Assembly (NCBI GenBank): GCA_017397125.1
Contig: JAFQKB010000014.1
Span: 1-37,477 of the forward strand
Direction: 5' to 3'
DNA length: 37,477 nucleotides
Source of the DNA: Clostridia bacterium
GTDB lineage: Bacteria; Bacillota; Clostridia; Oscillospirales; Acutalibacteraceae
The notes under the pieces were generated by a model, which saw only the letters and a program-made list of their open reading frames with translations, did not search any database and had not been told where the DNA came from. Below, one piece after another: positions 4,076-36,969 of this stretch (position 1 is the stretch's first letter; each line of letters begins with the position of its first letter). A program made the position numbers and the translations under genes.

Positions 4076-4090
4076 TGAAAGGAGAAAACG

Positions 4091-5722
4091 ATGAAAAAGA
4101 TATTTTCTGTTCTGTTGACACTACTGATCCTGCTGGGCTTGTGTGTTGGCTGTGGACAGACGCCGGAGCCGGACTTCAGCAAAGATGTGGACGTATCCAC
4201 GGACATTAGTCAAGAGGAGAGTTCTACCGTATCGGACGACAGCACCGATGACTCTACGACCACCACCGAGACAGATGCGTCCGGCACAGTGGAAGACAGC
4301 GATGTGACGGATAGCCCCTCTTCTGATGCGTCCGACAACAGATCTACCTCAAAGACGTCTGAAAAGACCTCTGACAAGGGCACGACTTCTTCTCCCCTCA
4401 GGGGTACAACGTCTTCCACAACCAGAGGGCAGGCCGGTCCTATTCGCACCACCACCAAAACCACTGTTGCTACTTCTACAGGCAGTATGACCAAAACCAC
4501 TGTGAATGTGGATACTCAAAAGACGCTGTTTGATGAAATCCCTGCGGCACTCAGCAAGCAAAAGGTCAAAATGCTGGTGTGGTGGCCTATAATGGACAGC
4601 GACAATGAGCAGTCTGCTTTCTTTACGGAAAAAACCGGCATTGGGGTTAAATACGAAACGATCAACGCTTCCAACTACCAGACCCGTCTGTCGGCGATGA
4701 TTATGAGTAACAACGCACCCTCCTGTGCGGCAATGCTTGCCGGTTGGTATCCTCAGCCCATCACCCGTGGTCTGCTCCAGCCTATCAAGAATACAGGCTG
4801 GGATTTCACAGACGATATCTATGCCACCAATCTGATGGACGAGTTTGCCTATAAGGGTGAATATTATGCAATTGCCTTGACGGGCTCTGTCAATCCTACC
4901 TTCAACATAATGTTCTTCAATCGTGATCTTCTCAAGAGATTTGGCGTGACCCAAGATCCTTATCAACTATGGAAAGCCGGTAAGTGGAACTGGGATACTT
5001 GCCTGGAGATGGCGAGAAAGTGTACCGACATTTCCAAGGGTATGTACGGCATGACCCTAACCTGGCAGTATTATTGGATGGTTTCTGCCGGTCAGGACTT
5101 TGTAGTACCCACCAAGGACGGCTTGATGAACAATGTGAAGAACCCGGCGATAGCCGATGCATGGATGTATGCTTGGCGTCTTACCAATGAGTACAAGGTA
5201 GTGGACCATAGTTTTACAGATTCGGCACCCTTTTACGCGCATACCAGTGCTCTGTATGCAACCGGCAGTTATGAGATGCAGAACAACCAGCCAACGTATC
5301 CTCCGGCTATGATGGCCGATGTAGATTGGGGCGTTGTTCCGTTCCCATCCCCCGCCGGTATGGATCCCATTGCCTCCTGTGATGGTACGGTGTGGGGCTT
5401 CCCAAGCCGCGTGACCGGAGACGAACTACAAGCGGCTGCTTGGTTCCTACGTTATTGGTTGGACGATGCTCAGTTCAAGTCCGCCGACTTCTATCCGAAG
5501 GAAGAGTGCTGGGAGGTTATGAACTGGATGTGGGAACAGAAGATTGAGTCCTTCAACTCGATGGGCGTATTGGGCTATGGGGGCGAATATGACGCAGCTA
5601 ATATGCAGCCGCTTATTATGGAAGGTGGCATAGCGAATATTAAGAATAATCTGGATTCTTGGTATGGTATAGCCGAGAGCAACATTAAAAAGATCGAAAC
5701 GGAAATGCCCATCCCTGATTAA
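4091..5722 (+). CDS. Extracellular solute-binding lipoprotein with Thr/Ser-rich linker
   Basis: 543 residues. The N-terminus is a lipoprotein signal (KK, hydrophobic stretch, VGC with the likely lipidated Cys at residue 21). Residues ~25-140 are a low-complexity acidic then Ser/Thr-rich spacer. From ~155 the sequence resembles family 1 extracellular solute-binding proteins of ABC sugar importers: a beta strand ending LVWWP, a region around NRDLLKRFG, a KWNWDT motif that usually follows it, and a late VWGFP segment. A good ribosome site (AAAGGAG) precedes the ATG. No permease or ATPase gene is adjacent, so it may work with a distant transporter or only as a surface glycan-binding protein. The long linker would let the domain reach through the wall. 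It is downstream of the CBM surface protein and probably co-transcribed. A strong terminator follows. Confidence 0.75.
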   Translation: MKKIFSVLLTLLILLGLCVGCGQTPEPDFSKDVDVSTDISQEESSTVSDDSTDDSTTTTETDASGTVEDSDVTDSPSSDASDNRSTSKTSEKTSDKGTTSSPLRGTTSSTTRGQAGPIRTTTKTTVATSTGSMTKTTVNVDTQKTLFDEIPAALSKQKVKMLVWWPIMDSDNEQSAFFTEKTGIGVKYETINASNYQTRLSAMIMSNNAPSCAAMLAGWYPQPITRGLLQPIKNTGWDFTDDIYATNLMDEFAYKGEYYAIALTGSVNPTFNIMFFNRDLLKRFGVTQDPYQLWKAGKWNWDTCLEMARKCTDISKGMYGMTLTWQYYWMVSAGQDFVVPTKDGLMNNVKNPAIADAWMYAWRLTNEYKVVDHSFTDSAPFYAHTSALYATGSYEMQNNQPTYPPAMMADVDWGVVPFPSPAGMDPIASCDGTVWGFPSRVTGDELQAAAWFLRYWLDDAQFKSADFYPKEECWEVMNWMWEQKIESFNSMGVLGYGGEYDAANMQPLIMEGGIANIKNNLDSWYGIAESNIKKIETEMPIPD

Positions 5723-25106: not shown

Positions 25107-25739
25107 TTATCTCTCCGTCAGTACAGCCATCTGCTGCAGGATTTTTTCAATAGGCTCGTTTTTGAACTTAAAGGAGGCCTTGTTGGCGATGAGGCGGGCG
25201 CTGATGGGCACCACGGTCTCGGTGACCTCCAGGTTGTTCTCCTTCAGGGTGGTGCCGGTCTCCACAATGTCCACGATCACGTCGGACAGCCCCAGAATGG
25301 GGGCGATCTCGATGGAGCCGTTGAGGTGGATGATGTCGATGTCCCGGCCCTGCCCGGCGTAATAGTCCCGGGCGATGCGGGAGAATTTGGTGGCCACCCG
25401 CAGGGTGCGGTTGGGGTCGTCCCGGAAGCCTGCCGGGGCGGCCACCGCCATGCGGCACTTGCCGATATCCAGATCCAGCAGCTCATACACCTGGGGGCGG
25501 TACTCCAGCAGGATGTCCTTGCCGGCCACGCCGATGTCAGCGGCGCCCCGCTCCACGTAGATGGCCACGTCCGAGGGCTTGACCCAGAAATACCGGACAC
25601 CGGCCTCCTGGTTTTCAAAGATGAGCTTGCGGTTGTTCTCCTTGATGGAGGGGCAGGGGAAGCCCGCCTGCTCAAACATAGCGTACACCTTTTCGCCTAG
25701 CCGCCCCTTGGGCAGGGCAATATTCAGCATTTCTTTCAC
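25107..25739 (-). CDS. hisG: ATP phosphoribosyltransferase, catalytic subunit (short form)
   Basis: 210 residues, so the short HisG type that lacks the C-terminal regulatory domain and needs HisZ. First committed step, ATP plus PRPP. The N-terminal ALPKGRLGEK and the later DIVETGTTLKENNL phosphate-binding motif are characteristic. The start is GTG overlapping the hisZ stop by 4 bp (GTGA), with GAGGTGAG upstream; an ATG three codons in is an alternative. Confidence 0.95.
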   Translation of the reverse strand: MKEMLNIALPKGRLGEKVYAMFEQAGFPCPSIKENNRKLIFENQEAGVRYFWVKPSDVAIYVERGAADIGVAGKDILLEYRPQVYELLDLDIGKCRMAVAAPAGFRDDPNRTLRVATKFSRIARDYYAGQGRDIDIIHLNGSIEIAPILGLSDVIVDIVETGTTLKENNLEVTETVVPISARLIANKASFKFKNEPIEKILQQMAVLTER

Positions 25740-26836
25740 AGGGGTCTCACCTCGCCGTCCTCAAACGCATACAGCCGACGATAGGTCAGCTTTTGGGGAA
25801 TCTCTTTTTGCAGGATGAGGGTGCCCTCCTGCCGCAGGGTGTCGGCGGCCGCCATCAACGCCGCCAGGTCACAGCCGTCCTTATATAGCAGCAGAGCATC
25901 CACGTCGTAGCCGGCGGCCTCCTGGTCCCGGCCCAGGCGGTCCAGGTACACCGCAAAGCCCACGGCCTTGCCCCGGCGCCCCATCCGCCGCATCAGCTTG
26001 TCGTACTGGCCGCCGGACAGCACGCTGTCCGGCGAGCCGGCCACAAAGCCCTTAAATACAATGCCATTGTAGTAGCGGCCCGCCGCCACCACGCTAAAGT
26101 CGATACGCAGCATCTCTGCCCAGGCGCTGCCGGCAAAGGCGTCGGTCAGCCGCCGCAGCTGGGCCACCGCCGGGGTCTCTCCCAGCAGGTCGGCCAGCCG
26201 GGGCAGCACCGCCGCCGGCGGGCCGTACAGCCCCACCAGCCGGCGCAGGGTGTCGGCGGTGGGGTCGGGAATGCCATAGGTGTCGCACACCGCCTGCAGC
26301 TCGTGGGCGTTCTTTTCGCCCACACAGCGGTAGACGGCGGCCTGCCCCTCGGCCGAGAGGGCCAGGGGCGCCAGCAGATCCTCCAGCACCCCCAGGTGGG
26401 AGATGTCCAGCACCGCCTTGGGGTGGATGCGGCGCAGGCTCTCCGCCGCCAGCCGCAGCACCTCGTACAGAGTGCAGTCGTCGATGTCTCCCATACACTC
26501 TACGCCGGTCTGCAGGATCTCCTTAAAGCAATGGGCGTCCTCCGACACCCGGTATACGTTTTCGTTGTAATAGACCCGTTGCACACAGCCGGCCTCGTCC
26601 CGGCTGTTTTTGATGATGGAGAGGGTCACGTCCGGCTTGAGAGCCATCAGCTTGCCGTCGGTGTCGGTAAAGGTGATGACCCCGTCGGAGATGAGGAACT
26701 CCTTATTGCGGACGTAGAGGTCGTATTCCTCGAATTTGCTCATCTTGTAGGGGGCGTAGCCGTATTGCTCGTACAGTCCCCGCAGGGCAAAGACCGCCTG
26801 CTCCTCTTTTTTCAGCGTACAGCCGTAGCCATTCAT
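25736..26836 (-). CDS. hisZ: ATP phosphoribosyltransferase regulatory subunit
   Basis: 366 residues. A paralogue of histidyl-tRNA synthetase catalytic domains without tRNA charging, forming the hetero-octamer with short HisG and giving histidine feedback. Class II-like strands: a YLYVRNKEF/LKPDVTLSI region near residues 50-80 and a late LSGGQYDKLMRRMG (motif 3-like) at ~280. The C-terminal anticodon-binding domain is absent, as expected. It overlaps the regulator upstream by ATGA, with GAGGAGGGTGA as ribosome site. Confidence 0.93.
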   Translation of the reverse strand: MNGYGCTLKKEEQAVFALRGLYEQYGYAPYKMSKFEEYDLYVRNKEFLISDGVITFTDTDGKLMALKPDVTLSIIKNSRDEAGCVQRVYYNENVYRVSEDAHCFKEILQTGVECMGDIDDCTLYEVLRLAAESLRRIHPKAVLDISHLGVLEDLLAPLALSAEGQAAVYRCVGEKNAHELQAVCDTYGIPDPTADTLRRLVGLYGPPAAVLPRLADLLGETPAVAQLRRLTDAFAGSAWAEMLRIDFSVVAAGRYYNGIVFKGFVAGSPDSVLSGGQYDKLMRRMGRRGKAVGFAVYLDRLGRDQEAAGYDVDALLLYKDGCDLAALMAAADTLRQEGTLILQKEIPQKLTYRRLYAFEDGEVRPL

Positions 26837-27310: not shown

Positions 27311-27499
27311 TCATTTCTTGTTGCGGATGCCCAGCACCAGCATGGCCACGGCGGCCACGCCGATGACCACGACCAGCACGGTGGTGACCACGGGGGTGCG
27401 GTCGCCGGTGGCGGGGCTGAGGGTAGCGGCTGCCGCCGGGATAGACATAACCGCTACCCAGGCCAGGCAGAGCAGTGTGCGCAGGACGTGTTTCATCAT
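27311..27499 (-). CDS. 62-residue secreted mini-protein with sorting-like tail
   Basis: The sequence reads as a signal peptide (residues 1-25, ending AAAA), a very short segment with SPATGD, then a second hydrophobic helix (~37-57) and a basic tail RNKK. The second half matches the layout of sortase signals (an L/S-P-x-T-G-D motif, hydrophobic stretch, positive tail). If cut at both sites, the exposed peptide would be only about six residues. It may instead stay as a two-helix membrane peptide. It has its own promoter, an AAAGGGTGA ribosome site and its own downstream hairpin, so it looks like a real gene. Not recognised as a known family; neighbours are the his operon and the M56 operon. Confidence 0.6.
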   Translation of the reverse strand: MMKHVLRTLLCLAWVAVMSIPAAAATLSPATGDRTPVVTTVLVVVIGVAAVAMLVLGIRNKK

Positions 27500-27528: not shown

Positions 27529-27557
27529 AGTATAGCACACGTCTGTCCATAAAACAA
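27529..27557 (-). promoter_or_regulatory. Promoter of the 62-residue protein gene
   Basis: Minus-strand TTGTTT (27552-27557), 17-bp spacer, TATACT (27529-27534). The -35 overlaps the T tract of the preceding terminator. Confidence 0.6.
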
Positions 27558-27589
27558 GCCCGCTCTTGAAAGAGTCAAGAGCGGGCTTG
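27555..27589 (-). terminator. Terminator of the BlaI-lipoprotein-M56 operon
   Basis: A 15-bp perfect stem (27555-27569 with 27575-27589) followed on the minus strand by TTTT, 17 bp after the M56 stop codon. Confidence 0.85.
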
Positions 27590-27606
27590 GGAAATTATTT
27601 GCGGGG

Positions 27607-29931
27607 TTATGCAAGGGCGTAGATGCACACGTCATCTTCGGCATCGACCCAAAAAGTGGAATACCCCTCGGCGGCCATCCGGTCCAAGGCATCGGCGGCG
27701 GCAAGCACCCAGGCCTCGTTAGAATCCAGTGGGACTCTTTCATACAAAGCATCTGGCGAGGTCAAAGAGTTGTTCACCGACAGTTCCAACTCCTCTTGGC
27801 CATATATTCGCAGCAGATACTCAAAAAGAATCATCCGGTTGTTGTGTTTTTCAAACACGTGGGCACGGACGCTACACACACCTTCTGTATAGGAATAGTT
27901 ATCTCCGGTTAAGCATAAGGATGCGCCTAAAGGCATCGGGACAGTCGTATCAAAGGGGGACCAGGTATCCCAGCTTCCACTAATGGTGCCGGTCCAAATG
28001 TCGCCCTCCTGCACGAAGGAGCACGAACCATCATAAAAGTAGCGGCGGTCGTCAGAGGCAATTGGACCGGCGCCAGATCCTATAAAATGGGTGCCCGGGG
28101 GAGCGTACAATTCTTGAAATTGGATTTTATCACCATTAAACAGCACCGTATACCCTTTTCCCAGAGACTTGCCAAAGAGGCGTTCCCACAGGTTCACTTC
28201 ACCTACCCACAGCTCAGTTTGGCGTTGCACGCCCAGAACCTGGGCATAGATGGGGGCGGGCGGCGGTGCGGTTGTGGTGGTTGTGCCCATGGTGGTTGTG
28301 GAGGTCGTGGTGGTAGCAGGTTTCGTGGTTGTGGTTGTGGTGGTTGTTACGGCCGTCGTTGCGGTGGTTGTTGTTGTGGTCGTAGCCGTAGTCGTGGTGG
28401 TGGGCGGGTCCGGCTCCGGGTCAGCGTGGGGCGCCAGCACCGCATTGACCGCCTGGCGCTCCGCCTCGGTCAGGGCCAGCAGGCTGTCCCCGGCCCGGAA
28501 GGTGCCGCAGTGGGCGGAATAGTCCACCACCTGGCCGCCTATGCTGATGCGGCAGGTGGTCTCGCACTCGGAAGGATCGGTATGCCAGGGGTGTTTCTGC
28601 ATCCGGTCGGAGATGGCTTTGCTGTCCGGGCGGCTCAGGGCCGTCCAGGTACCGTCTCCCGAGGCGGGGCAGATCCGCAGTATCCCGTCCATGGTCTGGT
28701 CGTAGAGGGCCAGCCACTGGTTGGCGGAGGCCCAGGCCGCCTCGTCCTGCCCCACACCGGTGATGCGGGCGCAGGCGGTGGCCATCAGATATTCCACCAG
28801 CCCGTGCTCCTTGCGGCGGCGCAGGGCGGCTACGTAGCAGTCTACGGTGTCCTCGCCGCCGGACAGGATCCGGTCGTACAGCACCGGGCTGGCTGCGATG
28901 TAATCCTCGGCACGGGAGGAAAAGGCAATCTCGTCGTTATCGGCGATCTGCTGGGCCATATCCAGCAGTTGGGCGTCGGAATAGGGCTGGTCGGGGTTGG
29001 TGAGCAGGCACACCGCCGCCACGGTGGTGGCCACCACGCCGGCCAGCAGGATCCATAGGGTGGGCTTGCGGTAGTGCAGCACCGAGCGGATGCGCCCCTT
29101 TACCGCCGTCTCGCCAAAGGCCACCGGGCAGGCGGCGATGGTGCGGCGGTGTACGCTGCACTGGAGCAGGGTGGAGGCATACAGGTATTTTTCCTCCTCG
29201 GGCAGGCGGCGCACCACCTGCTCGTCGCAGGCCAGCTCGATATCCCGGCACAGCAGGATATAGGCCACCCACAATAGCGGCTGGAACCAATACACCGTCA
29301 GCAGCAAAAAGCCGACCGGCTTCCACCAGTGGTCCCGGCGCTTCAGATGGGCCTGCTCGTGGGCGATGATGTGGGGGCGCTGCTCCTCACTGAGGTTGGT
29401 GGGCAGATAGATCACCGGCCGGAACACCCCCAGGATAAAGGGGGAGTCGATGGCGTCGCACACACGGATGCTTTTCTGCAGAGGCAGGGCCACCTGCACC
29501 CGCCGGTACATCCGCCAGAAGCTGATGACCCCATACAGAAGCATGGCCGCCATGCCCGCCACCCACAGCAGGGCGGCGATGCCGGTGAGGGTCTCCAGGG
29601 GGTGGGGTGAGGCGTCCTCGGCGGGGACGAAATGCTGGTGCAGCACCTGGTTGACCGGGACGTCCAGGGACGGGATGCCGATGTGGATGGAGGGGGTGGT
29701 GGACTGGGTGATATTGGGCGGCACCGTCTGGGCGCTGGGAATGAGGCTCAGAGGGCTCTCAAAGGAGAAGGGCAGCACCAGCCGGACCGCCACCAGCAGC
29801 CACAGGCCGCAGGTGAGGGCCTTGGGGGCGCGCCGCAGCAGCAGCCGCAGCAGGGCCACCGCCAGCACGATCCAGCCGGCGGTGATGCTCATATTCAGTA
29901 GCCGCAGGAATACGGCAGACAGGGTGTCCAT
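27607..29931 (-). CDS. M56-family (BlaR1/MecR1-like) membrane metalloprotease with Thr-rich linker and extra sensor domains
   Basis: 774 residues. Membrane helices at ~14-33, 38-57, 117-138, 204-228 and 291-311. The zinc site HEQAH (191-195) and ELACDEQ (232-238) mark a gluzincin of the M56 type. In BlaR1 this protease destroys the BlaI repressor on signal. Unlike BlaR1, the outside part is not a penicillin-binding domain. It has a ~200-residue alpha/beta region (~315-508), a nearly pure threonine linker (~511-555) and a second domain (~557-774) with no recognised family. Start ATG 29931 has GGAGGGAG upstream. It lies 99 bp after the poly-Thr lipoprotein and in the same direction as blaI, so the three form a probable operon. 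The ligand is unknown. Confidence 0.85.
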   Translation of the reverse strand: MDTLSAVFLRLLNMSITAGWIVLAVALLRLLLRRAPKALTCGLWLLVAVRLVLPFSFESPLSLIPSAQTVPPNITQSTTPSIHIGIPSLDVPVNQVLHQHFVPAEDASPHPLETLTGIAALLWVAGMAAMLLYGVISFWRMYRRVQVALPLQKSIRVCDAIDSPFILGVFRPVIYLPTNLSEEQRPHIIAHEQAHLKRRDHWWKPVGFLLLTVYWFQPLLWVAYILLCRDIELACDEQVVRRLPEEEKYLYASTLLQCSVHRRTIAACPVAFGETAVKGRIRSVLHYRKPTLWILLAGVVATTVAAVCLLTNPDQPYSDAQLLDMAQQIADNDEIAFSSRAEDYIAASPVLYDRILSGGEDTVDCYVAALRRRKEHGLVEYLMATACARITGVGQDEAAWASANQWLALYDQTMDGILRICPASGDGTWTALSRPDSKAISDRMQKHPWHTDPSECETTCRISIGGQVVDYSAHCGTFRAGDSLLALTEAERQAVNAVLAPHADPEPDPPTTTTTATTTTTTTATTAVTTTTTTTTKPATTTTSTTTMGTTTTTAPPPAPIYAQVLGVQRQTELWVGEVNLWERLFGKSLGKGYTVLFNGDKIQFQELYAPPGTHFIGSGAGPIASDDRRYFYDGSCSFVQEGDIWTGTISGSWDTWSPFDTTVPMPLGASLCLTGDNYSYTEGVCSVRAHVFEKHNNRMILFEYLLRIYGQEELELSVNNSLTSPDALYERVPLDSNEAWVLAAADALDRMAAEGYSTFWVDAEDDVCIYALA

Positions 29932-30030
29932 AATCTCCCTCCTTTGACGGGGTTAATCGAAATACTAAAAAGCAAAAACGTTGTCTCGATGGTGTTTTAC
30001 ATAATCTCAAAAGCTCTGGAGCGGGTAGAG

Positions 30031-31149
30031 TCATCCTTCCACGTCTTGGAATAAATAGCCGAGGCCGGGGTCGTCGATCTCGGTGAAATGGGCGGCGCCG
30101 TCCAGATGGGTCAGTTCGCTCAAAGGACCGAAGGACAAGTTCTTAGCCGGATCGCCCAGAGTACATTCACTTATGGAGATCTGCCATACCTGGTCAAAAG
30201 GCGTTCCGTTTCGCTCCCCTTGCAGTCGAAGCTGATAGAACACCTGGAATCCGCGGACCTTTTCAGAAAAGGACAGGGCGTAATAGAAACAAGCCTCCGG
30301 CACGGATATGGAGGTGGTATCTTCTATATCCACACCGGTCAGACGGACACCCATAGTCACAAAACCGGGATACTGTTCCTTGAAAACGCTTCCCTCCACC
30401 GGTACCTCATAGTACGGTGAATTGTAAAAGCCCTTGGAGGTGCCTCCCACCTGTTGTGGCGGCTGCTCCTCCAGGTTGACCATAGAGGCCTTGGGCGGGA
30501 GCGTGGTCAGCTCTTGCATCATCGAGTCTGCCAGGGTAGCCCATGCGGGAAGCCCGTCGGTGGTGTACACATATCCCTTGTCGTTGTGGATCCAATGCAC
30601 GTCCTTTTGATCGGTAAAAGAATAATAATATTGGTCGGCCCTGTTATCCGGACTCCACGCGCTTGAACAGAAGCTGGTCAGTTGTCGGGCAGACAGAGGA
30701 TCGTTGGTATCGGCCACGGCGTAGCGCAGGTCAAACTCTGAAAAAAGCGGCGTATCACCAGCGTTCTGCAGCCAGCAGGAGGAACGCTGTATGGTGAGCT
30801 GCAGGCTGTCGGAATCCATCGTCCGTGCCATCGCCGCCGCCAGCCGCTCATAGGCGGAGTAATCCCCCGGCGGCAGTGTGGTCGTGGTGGTGGTAGGCGC
30901 TGTGGTTGTGGTGGTCGGTTTCTTTGTGGTTGTTGTCGTGGTGGTCGCCGTAGTCGTCGTGGTGGTAGTAGTTGTTGTCGTAGTTGTTGTGGTGGTCGTG
31001 GTGGTCGTGGTGGTCTGGTGGCTGTGGGCGGTGACGGAGGTGCTGACCTCCCCCGGCAGGGAGAGGTCGCTTGTGTCCGTATGGGGCTTGCCGCAGCCGC
31101 CGGTCACAACCAGCAGAACAGCCAACAACCATAGGCCGGCTTTTTTCAT
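30031..31149 (-). CDS. Poly-threonine lipoprotein of the BlaI-M56 operon
   Basis: 372 residues. The signal peptide has lipobox TGGC with Cys19. Residues ~46-93 are almost only threonine with a few Ala, Pro and Lys. The rest (~95-372) is a globular domain with alternating strands and several Cys; its shape recalls LolA/LppX-like or DUF6612-type lipoprotein folds, but that is only an impression. The ATG at 31149 overlaps the BlaI stop by 4 bp (ATGA) and has GGGAGG upstream. It sits between repressor and protease genes, so it is likely a co-sensor or ligand-binding partner on the outer face of the membrane. The Thr linker would carry it through the wall and could be O-glycosylated. Confidence 0.8.
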   Translation of the reverse strand: MKKAGLWLLAVLLVVTGGCGKPHTDTSDLSLPGEVSTSVTAHSHQTTTTTTTTTTTTTTTTTTTTTTATTTTTTTKKPTTTTTAPTTTTTTLPPGDYSAYERLAAAMARTMDSDSLQLTIQRSSCWLQNAGDTPLFSEFDLRYAVADTNDPLSARQLTSFCSSAWSPDNRADQYYYSFTDQKDVHWIHNDKGYVYTTDGLPAWATLADSMMQELTTLPPKASMVNLEEQPPQQVGGTSKGFYNSPYYEVPVEGSVFKEQYPGFVTMGVRLTGVDIEDTTSISVPEACFYYALSFSEKVRGFQVFYQLRLQGERNGTPFDQVWQISISECTLGDPAKNLSFGPLSELTHLDGAAHFTEIDDPGLGYLFQDVEG

Positions 31150-31514
31150 CGGTTTTCCTCCCGGCACCGGTCGATCATCTGCTGCAGCTGCTCCACCTCG
31201 GCGGGGGACAACTGCTTGCGGGTGGTAAAGGCGGCGAAAAACGCCGGCAGAGACCCCTCAAAGGTATCCGCCACGAACTGCTCGCACTGCCGGGCATAGT
31301 ATTCATCCCGGGATATGCGGGAGGTGACGATGCTGCTCTGGTTCTGGAACAGACCACGCTCGCACAGCTTGCGCAGTACGGTATAGGTGGTGGGCTTTTT
31401 CCACAGCAGCTCCTTCTGGCAGATCCGTACCAGCTGGGTGGACGACAGGGGCTCGTTTTCCCAGATCAGCTCGGCAAAGCGGGTCTCCACCACGCCCAGT
31501 TTAGTAATTTCCAT
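31146..31514 (-). CDS. BlaI/MecI-family transcriptional repressor
   Basis: 122 residues, normal size. N-terminal winged helix with the ELIWE segment and TTYTVLRKLCERGLF (recognition helix region, including the conserved T-V-x-T/Y pattern), then a C-terminal dimerisation helix pair. In known systems an M56 protease inactivates it; the matching protease is two genes downstream. Start ATG with AAGGAGA eight bases upstream. A consensus promoter and a 19-bp inverted repeat lie just upstream, so it likely represses its own operon. Confidence 0.9.
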   Translation of the reverse strand: MEITKLGVVETRFAELIWENEPLSSTQLVRICQKELLWKKPTTYTVLRKLCERGLFQNQSSIVTSRISRDEYYARQCEQFVADTFEGSLPAFFAAFTTRKQLSPAEVEQLQQMIDRCREENR

Positions 31515-31529
31515 ACAAACATCTCCTTC

Positions 31530-31548
31530 GGTTTATGATTTGTAAACC
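31530..31548. promoter_or_regulatory. Candidate BlaI operator
   Basis: Inverted repeat GGTTTA-7-TAAACC sits between the promoter and the start codon of the blaI-like gene. On the minus strand its left arm and centre contain TTTACAAAT, similar in feel to the TACA/TGTA cores of BlaI/MecI boxes. A second looser pair, TACA...TGTA, lies just upstream over the -10 (about 31549-31564). Confidence 0.6.
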
Positions 31549-31558
31549 CTACAGCCCT

Positions 31559-31587
31559 AGTGTACCGCCTTTTTCTGCGTTTGTCAA
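31559..31587 (-). promoter_or_regulatory. Promoter of the BlaI-lipoprotein-M56 operon
   Basis: Minus-strand TTGACA (31582-31587), exact 17-bp spacer, TACACT (31559-31564). Confidence 0.8.
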
Positions 31588-31648: not shown

Positions 31649-31677
31649 TTGACAATGACCTATCTCTCCCGTATAAT
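31649..31677 (+). promoter_or_regulatory. Consensus promoter of the DUF1874-like gene
   Basis: TTGACA (31649-31654), 17-bp spacer, TATAAT (31672-31677): a full consensus match, implying high constitutive expression. Confidence 0.9.
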
Positions 31678-31717: not shown

Positions 31718-32101
31718 ATGAGCAACCATGCTGATCTGCCGTTGCTGTTGTTGGACAACAGCAATATGATGAACGTGCTGAACGAGGGCGAATTCAAGTG
31801 CTACAATCTGCCCTTTGACGAGGCCAAGGTTATTCTGGAGGCCTATGACGAGGAGGAGATCCTCCGCTGCTTCAGCAATTCGGACCTGGAGAACATCATT
31901 TTCGGCTATCTGGGCATTGCCAGGCGGAATTTTGTGTACAAAAAGATCCGCAATATGCGCCCCGGCCAGCACGCCATCGTGTTTAAGCTGTATGTGACCC
32001 CCTCCGAGACTCAGCCCATCATCCAGGCGGATGACGGTGTGGAGGCCAAGAAGATCCAGAACGTATACGTATATTGCCAGCACCTGATCCGCCAGGCATA
32101 A
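31718..32101 (+). CDS. Small protein resembling the STIV_B116/YddF (DUF1874) fold
   Basis: 127 residues, cytoplasmic. The order of features matches DUF1874/YddF proteins as I recall them: an N-terminal LLLLDNS strand, a short turn and EFKCYNLPFDEAKVIL (compare the Y/F-x-P-x-S/L-EEAK helix), a helix around SDLENIIFGYLGI, a short basic segment, then RPGQHAIVFKLYVTP (compare PGD-x-A-LVFKL). Viral members of the family are ring nucleases (AcrIII-1) with a catalytic His before the middle helix; here that position is Phe/Ser, so nuclease activity is unlikely. It has a consensus promoter, an AAAGGAG site and its own terminator, so it is a highly expressed single gene. Similarity is by eye and moderate; function unknown. 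Confidence 0.5.
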   Translation: MSNHADLPLLLLDNSNMMNVLNEGEFKCYNLPFDEAKVILEAYDEEEILRCFSNSDLENIIFGYLGIARRNFVYKKIRNMRPGQHAIVFKLYVTPSETQPIIQADDGVEAKKIQNVYVYCQHLIRQA

Positions 32102-36168: not shown

Positions 36169-36969
36169 TTAAAAAAGTTCAGAATTATGTACCACACCCA
36201 AAACCTTACCAAAACAAAAACGATTCAAAATTGATAAAATAATAAATGGGCCGATAAAAATTACATACATCGCTAAAACAACAGGCGTTGCCCCAGACAT
36301 TTCAGCAATACCGTTCCAAATATCAAAATTGCCTTTCTTCAATTCAGTCAATATAATCATCACCGGAACTGCAGGAATAAGGCTAAGCTGAATATAAATA
36401 TATGTGTTAAAATATTGCCAACGAATTTTTTTGCCGTTTTTGCTCAAAAGCTCACTGTTTTTTCGTTTTCGTTTCTCGTTTTCATACTCTTCTTCAGTAA
36501 CCAAAAACTTTCGTCTATTCCTCAGCAAAAAAACAATGCCAACCATAGCCAAAGCAAAAACAATCAAGCCTATTGCCAGAAAAGCATAACCAACGTCAAC
36601 CGTACGTGGCGTCGCAATTTCATTCGGGTTTTGCGGGTTATAAAAAATGTTAAGTTTATCTCCAACCGAATAATGCGCTCCCGTGCCGGCAGCAAACGCT
36701 ATTTTAGTGTCGGTACTTAATTCTCGGTTATAAACTATACTATCAACCTCGTAGGTAATATAAATCTCCTGCACATCAGGGCTACGCACATTTACATCTA
36801 AATCAATATTTACAATAATAGCTTCAATAGATTTCATATTTGATACCAAATTATCATATTGAATTTTAGAAATAATAGCAGGCACAATAAAAGCAGCTGC
36901 CAGTAAACAGCAAAATATAAGAGCAATTATACCGTCTCTAAAAACTTTATTGTATCTTAATTTTTCCAT
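36169..36969 (-). CDS. DUF3592-domain membrane protein
   Basis: 266 residues. TM helix ~13-35; an extracytoplasmic beta domain (~45-125) with the DUF3592 pattern (IEAIIVNI..., ITYEVDSIVYNREL, YSVGDKLNIFYNPQNPNE); then TM helix ~133-155, a charged cytoplasmic stretch EEYENEKRKRK, and two or more helices at the C-terminus. The ATG at 36969 has AAAGGTCGGTGAT upstream. It is AT-rich, unlike the neighbouring genes, and has its own promoter. Function unknown; such proteins often occur in accessory or toxin-immunity settings. Confidence 0.75.
   Translation of the reverse strand: MEKLRYNKVFRDGIIALIFCCLLAAAFIVPAIISKIQYDNLVSNMKSIEAIIVNIDLDVNVRSPDVQEIYITYEVDSIVYNRELSTDTKIAFAAGTGAHYSVGDKLNIFYNPQNPNEIATPRTVDVGYAFLAIGLIVFALAMVGIVFLLRNRRKFLVTEEEYENEKRKRKNSELLSKNGKKIRWQYFNTYIYIQLSLIPAVPVMIILTELKKGNFDIWNGIAEMSGATPVVLAMYVIFIGPFIILSILNRFCFGKVLGVVHNSELF

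Follow-up and report, generated by a model that had tools for sequence, protein, structure and literature searches.

The BlaI-M56 operon and its lipoprotein gene

The window analyzed here covers positions 1 to 37,477 of contig JAFQKB010000014.1 (assembly GCA_017397125.1) from an uncultured gut Clostridia bacterium of the family Acutalibacteraceae, and its subject is an operon that encodes a BlaI-type repressor, a lipoprotein, and a BlaR1-like membrane protease of family M56. All three genes lie on the minus strand, in the 5'-to-3' order promoter, dyad, BlaI, lipoprotein, M56, terminator. The features are as follows, with GC3 standing for the G+C fraction at third codon positions.

31559..31587, minus strand: sigma-70 type promoter TTGACA-17-TACACT, with a spacer that lacks the clear operator dyad common to most relatives
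31530..31548, no strand: likely BlaI operator (predicted), a 19-base imperfect dyad with core GTTTAC-N5-ATAAAC, at the position of the second operator of relatives
31146..31514, minus strand: BlaI/MecI-type repressor of 122 amino acids, with Pro41 in the motif KKPTTYT (PF03965, E 3.4e-20)
30031..31149, minus strand: lipoprotein of 372 amino acids, with signal peptide and lipobox (by reading), a 46-residue Thr linker, and an outside domain of ~280 residues
27607..29931, minus strand: BlaR1-like M56 membrane protease of 774 amino acids, HEQAH at residues 191-195 (PF05569, E 7.1e-52, residues 10-282)
28402..28998, minus strand: first outside region of the M56 protein, modules d1a and d1b, with weak relatives elsewhere
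28270..28401, minus strand: Thr-rich linker of the M56 protein, residues 511-554
27610..28260, minus strand: second outside region of the M56 protein, d2, GC3 0.58, without credible relatives
27555..27589, minus strand: intrinsic terminator at the operon end, by DNA folding

The original prediction, made from the letters of the stretch, had described this operon, and the description is confirmed in nearly every detail. The stop codon of BlaI and the start codon of the lipoprotein gene overlap by 4 bases (ATGA, 31146-31149), and the M56 gene follows after a gap of 99 bases. Both Thr-rich stretches are where they had been seen, at residues 46-91 of the lipoprotein (40 of 46 Thr) and residues 511-554 of the M56 protein (34 of 44 Thr). 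The promoter matches the consensus at 10 of 12 positions, while the reported 19-base palindrome is present as a dyad but is imperfect, with 7 of 9 pairs matching by eye. The terminator-like hairpin is strong (z -7.7, equaled by none of 200 shuffles, folded as DNA), and its presence is probably why the interval originally drawn began at 27555.

Both protein families are securely assigned. BlaI scores 72.9 bits against PF03965 (Penicillinase_R), for which the curated cut-off is 22.6, and the protease scores 176.8 bits against PF05569, for which it is 31. In an alignment of 13 M56 sequences from this genome and its genus, H191, E192, and H195 are invariant. The BlaI and M56 domains and the HEQAH motif are intact, and a likely operator of a type that suits this BlaI lies in the operon's own promoter. 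The NCBIfam equivalog model for blaR1 gave 82.2 bits, far below its cut-off of 400, and aligned with residues 27-311 only. The 472-residue outside part of the M56 protein has no Pfam match, and the whole protein matched no solved structure at E 0.01.

Gene order and outside parts among relatives

Gene order was surveyed around 97 M56 open reading frames (ORFs) in 93 loci: 4 from the genome of the window, 9 from its genus, and 80 named loci, the best 80 when 570 confirmed candidates were ranked by likeness to the genus alignment. Four loci hold two M56 ORFs. Near copies (L110, L127, and L134) and one ORF with an outside part of fewer than 100 residues were dropped from later counts, which left 93, of which 8 are cut by a contig end. 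The genome of the window itself holds four BlaI-M56 pairs, the other three lying on contigs C62, C48, and C35.

With distances taken between the two profile matches, 94 of the 97 M56 ORFs have BlaI upstream within 100 bases. The exceptions are L102, where 205 bases without a notable reading frame intervene, the second M56 gene of a tandem in L119, and the window. The three-gene order, the lack of which in relatives had been named beforehand as grounds for refuting the co-sensor idea, is therefore found in the window only. Downstream of M56, no ORF of 80 amino acids starts within 150 bases in 39 of 94 cases, 11 reach the contig end, and many of the other 44 ORFs look antisense (all rough counts). 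The tandem in L119 (8007-12274) places two M56 genes behind one BlaI; two BlaR1 genes are likewise reported for one BlaI operon of Clostridium thermocellum (PMC8457756).

Around the operon, no synteny was seen in the five relatives inspected, although three of those stretches end within 6 kb. The gene at 25739-26836, which we take to be hisZ, has a match in 9 of the 10 genomes of the genus, that of the window among them. The region beyond it differs in the five relatives, and an argument from an empty site was accordingly rejected. For the UroD-like flank, just one other genome has a match, at 29%.

None of the 93 M56 outside parts, that of the window included, matches a transpeptidase. Those with Pfam matches carry Big_14 (11), DUF3221 (3), or FG-GAP repeats (2), with LRR_5, M23 peptidase, PepSY, and others occurring once. 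The Pfam check thus bears out the earlier statement that the outside domains hold no known beta-lactam sensor, and the system is indeed nonclassical, but this state is the rule among relatives rather than a peculiarity of the window. By BLAST linkage, 85 of the 93 outside parts join one group, and the outside part of the window's protein is a singleton. Two unrecognized outside domains had been proposed for it. Neither is in Pfam, but the first proved to consist of a pair of small modules that have weak relatives: d1a is similar to small proteins whose N terminus is hydrophobic in two other family genomes (L077 and L079; E 4.1e-6 and 0.0019) and to the end of the M56 protein of L125 (E 8.8e-6), and d1b is similar to two segments of a protein that contains Thr linkers (L078, E 1.8e-5), with weak similarity also to L081 and L083 (E about 0.015). 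For d2, no credible relative was found in 300 family genomes or 394 order genomes. The best match and sole lead, which covers ~100 residues in a long protein of surface-like character (L176), has an E of 0.0012 for one genome and was counted as chance, since 394 genomes were searched.

Taken together, the window operon is a variant of the BlaI-M56 type; it is neither a classical beta-lactam system nor a conserved three-gene system.

Promoter, operator, and repressor

The promoters of relatives have TTGACA, followed by a dyad that lies in the spacer and over the -10 element, and often by a second dyad ~25 bases further on. A promoter was identified in 85 of 93 BlaI upstream regions, 2 being too short and 6 without a match. 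On a scale with a maximum of 6, the spacer dyad scored 6 in 45 promoters, 5 in 36, 4 in 3, and 3 in one, that of the window. The shuffle mean over all spacer dyads is 3.75, and the three promoters with 4/6 lie near their own shuffles, which leaves the 81 promoters at 5 or 6 as the clear cases. The window retains a dyad at the second place only, at 31530-31548, and its half-site type fits the residue class of its BlaI, which makes it a good candidate for the operator of the operon's own promoter. The promoter match does not by itself prove a promoter, since the scan found 3 promoter-like sites against a shuffle mean of 2.0.

Across these promoters, the BlaI residue that precedes TTYT and the third base of the operator half-site vary together. 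This comparison covered the BlaI promoters of L039-L041, L067-L075, and L095-L174 plus the window; an operator was found in 65 of 92 rows and none in 27, under a pattern restricted to C or T at the position concerned. Pro goes with all-GTTTA half-sites in 21 of 21 cases, Thr with all-GTCTA in 22 of 23 (one mixed), Ser with mixed half-sites in 16 of 18 (all C in 2), and Ala with GTTTA in 2 of 2. The window, with Pro41 and GTTTA, is in line with this, as are the three paralogous BlaI proteins of the same genome, which have Thr and GTCTA sites (the C48 site being imperfect). Fisher's test gives 5e-13 for the association, but kinship is ignored, which weakens its reading. In a tree check, the three independent pairs on starred branches were nearly all concordant, with a sign test p of 0.25, and three pairs cannot reach significance in this test. 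It is possible that the link constitutes a one-residue code that keeps paralogous circuits apart. If it holds true in binding, such a code would explain how several BlaI-M56 circuits stay separate in one cell.

The site at which M56 would cut BlaI was assigned by motif match, not by alignment to the staphylococcal protein: it reads AF in 86 of 93 sequences and SF in 4, with 3 unmatched. The published BlaI cleavage site is Asn-Phe (PMC5341023).

Few further targets came to light. For the outer 6+6 bases of the window dyad, the genome of the window (1.8 Mb, about 86% complete) holds no second exact copy and one further place at one mismatch, and a control pattern gave an equal number of matches. 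The wider pattern GTYTAY-N5-RTARAC has three sites there (the window promoter, the promoter of the C62 pair, and C55:3559), with one for the reversed control; it misses the C48 and C35 operators. In these pattern searches of the genome, the window promoter was thus the only place with an exact site of its type. In 1,258,721 bases of survey loci, the strict operator pattern occurred away from BlaI promoters twice. BlaI-M56 circuits therefore look like circuits closed on themselves, judged from the survey loci rather than from the remainder of the relatives' genomes. The stray dyad at C55, GTCTATCACCAATAGAC (G000:C55:3559-3575, L181), follows a small helix-turn-helix-like gene and has no promoter by eye. 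It is possibly a target of the C62 BlaI, or a chance match.

Outside modules are shared between receptors and their neighbors

Across the survey, 6 of the 93 M56 outside parts match another ORF within their own locus, compared with 82 of 8277 pairs from other loci. For the window's own genome and its genus, the figures are 5 of 13 and 16 of 156. Matching ORFs lie upstream of BlaI in L072 and L075, where they have a hydrophobic or lipoprotein-like start, and in L074, and downstream of M56 in L070, with a signal-like start. Modules that are separate in one locus can be fused to M56 in another: the C62 M56 protein, which has a leucine-rich repeat (LRR) match, matches an ORF beside the BlaI-M56 pair of L072 that also has an LRR match (1.2e-77). 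The C48 M56 protein (L040) matches an ORF of L075 (9.6e-41), and its end domain recurs within its own genome on a lipoprotein with a Thr tether (L189, contig C80, G000; E 1.8e-25). Outside modules common to the receptor and neighboring ORFs are thus a real theme of the genus.

The base composition of the M56 genes changes along their length. In the window, GC3 is ~0.9 in the M56 domain (0.90) and falls to ~0.55 after the Thr linker, and in the C62 and C48 genes it is also lowest near or after the linker. The pattern is weakened by C48, where GC3 dips to 0.50-0.57 near residues 301-450, before any Thr linker, and by C35, which lacks such a linker and is middling throughout. The drop would fit late addition or faster change of the end domains.

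The shared Thr linker is weak evidence for a pair. The original prediction took it to be of a rare type, but all 10 genus genomes contain runs of nine Thr codons (with the last third base left free), so the linker does not mark a pair and was rejected as a pair marker. By reading, the genome of the window has such runs in 8 separate places (C19, C38 twice, C48, C62 twice, C80, and C82), compared with one for the control. These counts are weakened by control matches in five genomes (own 1, G001 1, G002 2, G003 4, and G006 1), those in G003 exceeding the 2 matches of the Thr pattern itself. From own-genome and genus loci, we collected 49 ORFs with Thr linkers, 40 of which had been fetched for their Thr runs. 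Of these, 13 come from the genome of the window: two belong to the window, two are among the other three M56 proteins, and several carry what by eye is a lipobox. Lipoproteins with a Thr tether are frequent in the genus, again by eye.

The lipoprotein itself stands apart. By reading, it has a signal peptide and a lipobox ending in Cys, MKKAGLWLLAVLLVVTGGC. When the whole protein was compared with 60 relatives, 12 of the 60 genomes matched, own included, with all nonself matches confined to residues 1-129, i.e., the signal peptide and Thr stretch. With the outside domain as the query, the 300 family genomes yielded the own genome and 11 genomes with weak matches (E 0.00095 to 0.08). Ten of these frames were inspected by eye and set aside, seven being DNA ligase-like and the others resembling unrelated enzymes. 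A joint query of this domain and d2 against the 394 order genomes returned the own genome and 4 weak matches (E 0.0012 to 0.0079). The lipoprotein had no match among plasmids, and its 4 pattern matches in viral contigs were not confirmed (0 of 4). Apart from the BlaI and M56 domains, Pfam, NCBIfam, and PHROGs offered no useful match, and solved structures offered none under E 0.2. Homology between the lipoprotein domain and d2 of the M56 protein was considered and rejected (BLASTP E 21; single-sequence hhalign probability 0.1, a comparison of low power).

Comparison with known systems

The operon shares with BlaR1-BlaI and MecR1-MecI of staphylococci and Bacillus licheniformis an M56 membrane zinc protease with an outside C-terminal part, a BlaI-type repressor, and an operator in its own promoter. 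It differs in lacking a penicillin-binding outside domain and in adding a lipoprotein gene between repressor and protease, and its core GTTTAC-N5-ATAAAC differs from the published operator consensus with TTACA..TGTA (PMC5341023). The BlaI_0696 and BlaI_1845 circuits of C. thermocellum resemble it in forming small self-regulating regulons with extra operon genes of unassigned function (PMC8457756). For BlaI_0696, the same paper gives inverted repeats of GTCTAT five bases apart, a geometry with which the window agrees. The targets described there carry two inverted-repeat pairs, apparently as a strict requirement, whereas the window has a single pair, in which the third base of the half-site is T. 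The operon also resembles the BlaI-M56 pairs of the same genus and of other gut Clostridia (L067-L075 and L095-L174), which have adjacent repressor and protease genes, outside parts with no transpeptidase match, and a promoter with dyads, but in none of which are BlaI and M56 separated by a different kind of gene. Their spacer dyads also set them apart, since 84 of the 85 promoters score at least 4/6 (81 at 5 or 6) and the window scores 3.

Interpretation

Our tentatively favored reading, plausible although short of probable, is that the window encodes a BlaI-M56 circuit that regulates itself and induces, along with its own genes, an accessory lipoprotein that acts as a co-receptor or feedback partner. 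By analogy with the BlaR1 family, a signal on the outside part of M56 would activate the inner zinc protease, which would then cut BlaI and derepress the operon. Since the operon's promoter holds an operator that fits and the searches of its genome turned up no further exact match to this type, the signal probably induces the operon itself. The lipoprotein would then be an accessory surface module of the receptor that is encoded separately here, a view taken because relatives carry modules fused to M56 or in a neighboring ORF. The Thr stretches would serve as tethers and may be places at which end domains are exchanged. As for the co-sensor pair originally proposed, the module sharing within the genus speaks for it, but the gene order is not conserved and the linker is no marker of a pair. 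Nothing in our results points to the wall- or glycan-related ligand that had been suggested.

Several observations weigh against this reading. Among the 97 M56 ORFs, only the window has a gene of a different kind between BlaI and M56. In relatives, the matching ORFs instead precede BlaI or follow M56, and since strict operators are all but absent away from BlaI promoters, it is not clear that those before BlaI are co-regulated. Among the five cases of module sharing in the genus, L069 is a 62-amino-acid repeat of the M56 end, i.e., a fragment, and L074 is cut by a contig end. The lipoprotein domain has no detected similarity to M56 outside parts, and neither the 300 family genomes nor the 394 order genomes yielded a credible relative or a fused counterpart. 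Furthermore, the spacer dyad is the weakest of the 85 promoters (3/6, with an own-shuffle mean of 2.9), which may mean that regulation is weak.

Alternatively, the lipoprotein could be the output of the circuit, dealing with the signal in place of the classical beta-lactamase, a possibility that we regard as somewhat doubtful. The lipoprotein gene is the only one besides repressor and protease seen under the operator, the operon is closed by a terminator, and the genome offers no other exact site of this type; the extra genes of the C. thermocellum BlaI operons are likewise proposed to be the response (PMC8457756). On the other hand, Pfam, NCBIfam, and PHROGs recognize no enzyme or binding domain in the lipoprotein, and many related circuits seem to manage without a further gene, 94 of 97 having none between BlaI and M56 and 39 of 94 none just downstream.

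It is unlikely, though worth weighing, that the lipoprotein is a passenger in a drifting circuit, in which a gene for a Thr-tethered lipoprotein landed between blaI and M56 and the spacer operator decayed, with no joint function. Its position, unique among the 97, and the weak spacer dyad would agree with such a history, as would the commonness of Thr-tethered lipoproteins in the genus, the lack of synteny in five relatives, and a GC3 (0.68) below that of BlaI (0.81) and the M56 domain (0.90). This GC3 is not extreme, however, among 61 long ORFs of the genome, of which the middle half fall at 0.70-0.83 and 5% under 0.57. All three reading frames are intact, as are the lipobox, the promoter, and one operator, whose type still suits the BlaI residue, and the ATGA overlap suggests coupled translation, none of which favors decay. 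A classical beta-lactam sensor operon is extremely improbable and, as far as sequence goes, refuted: the BlaI and M56 families would fit, but neither the M56 protein nor the lipoprotein has a transpeptidase or penicillin-binding protein match, the blaR1 score is low, and the 8 window proteins scanned include no beta-lactamase or penicillin-binding protein.

Returning to the circuit with an accessory lipoprotein, its more interesting aspects are genus-wide, namely, exchangeable outside parts and covariation of repressor and operator. A possible, if doubtful, generalization is that the BlaI-M56 circuits of the genus are modular receptors, whose outside cassettes are swapped at Thr-codon linkers with tethered lipoproteins, in cis or in trans, and that the lipoprotein of the window is a dedicated, co-induced co-receptor, insulated from the three paralogues by a one-residue/one-base repressor-operator code. 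To our knowledge, what is known of BlaR1-type receptors comes nearly all from beta-lactam resistance, and a literature search, mostly without subscription journals, found no paper devoted to M56 receptors whose outside domains are of other kinds. The same M56 core is used with many other outside parts in circuits that appear closed on themselves, so what else M56 receptors sense becomes a testable question.

Other features of the window

Just past the operon terminator, at 27311-27499 on the minus strand, lies an ORF of 62 amino acids with a signal-like start, the motif SPATGD, a membrane stretch, and an RNKK end; it resembles a tiny sortase-type substrate. On the plus strand, a perfect sigma-70 consensus promoter (12 of 12 positions, 31649-31677) precedes a divergent gene at 31718, the product of which has no Pfam match above cut-off. 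An ORF of 266 amino acids at 36172-36969 (minus strand) has a GC3 of 0.29, compared with a median of 0.78 for the 61 long ORFs of four own-genome stretches, and may be foreign or no gene. Finally, the product of 4079-5719 (plus strand) has a paralogue in the same genome on contig C71 (L192), with ~405 residues matched (E 3.1e-187), the match falling in the part after a Thr stretch.

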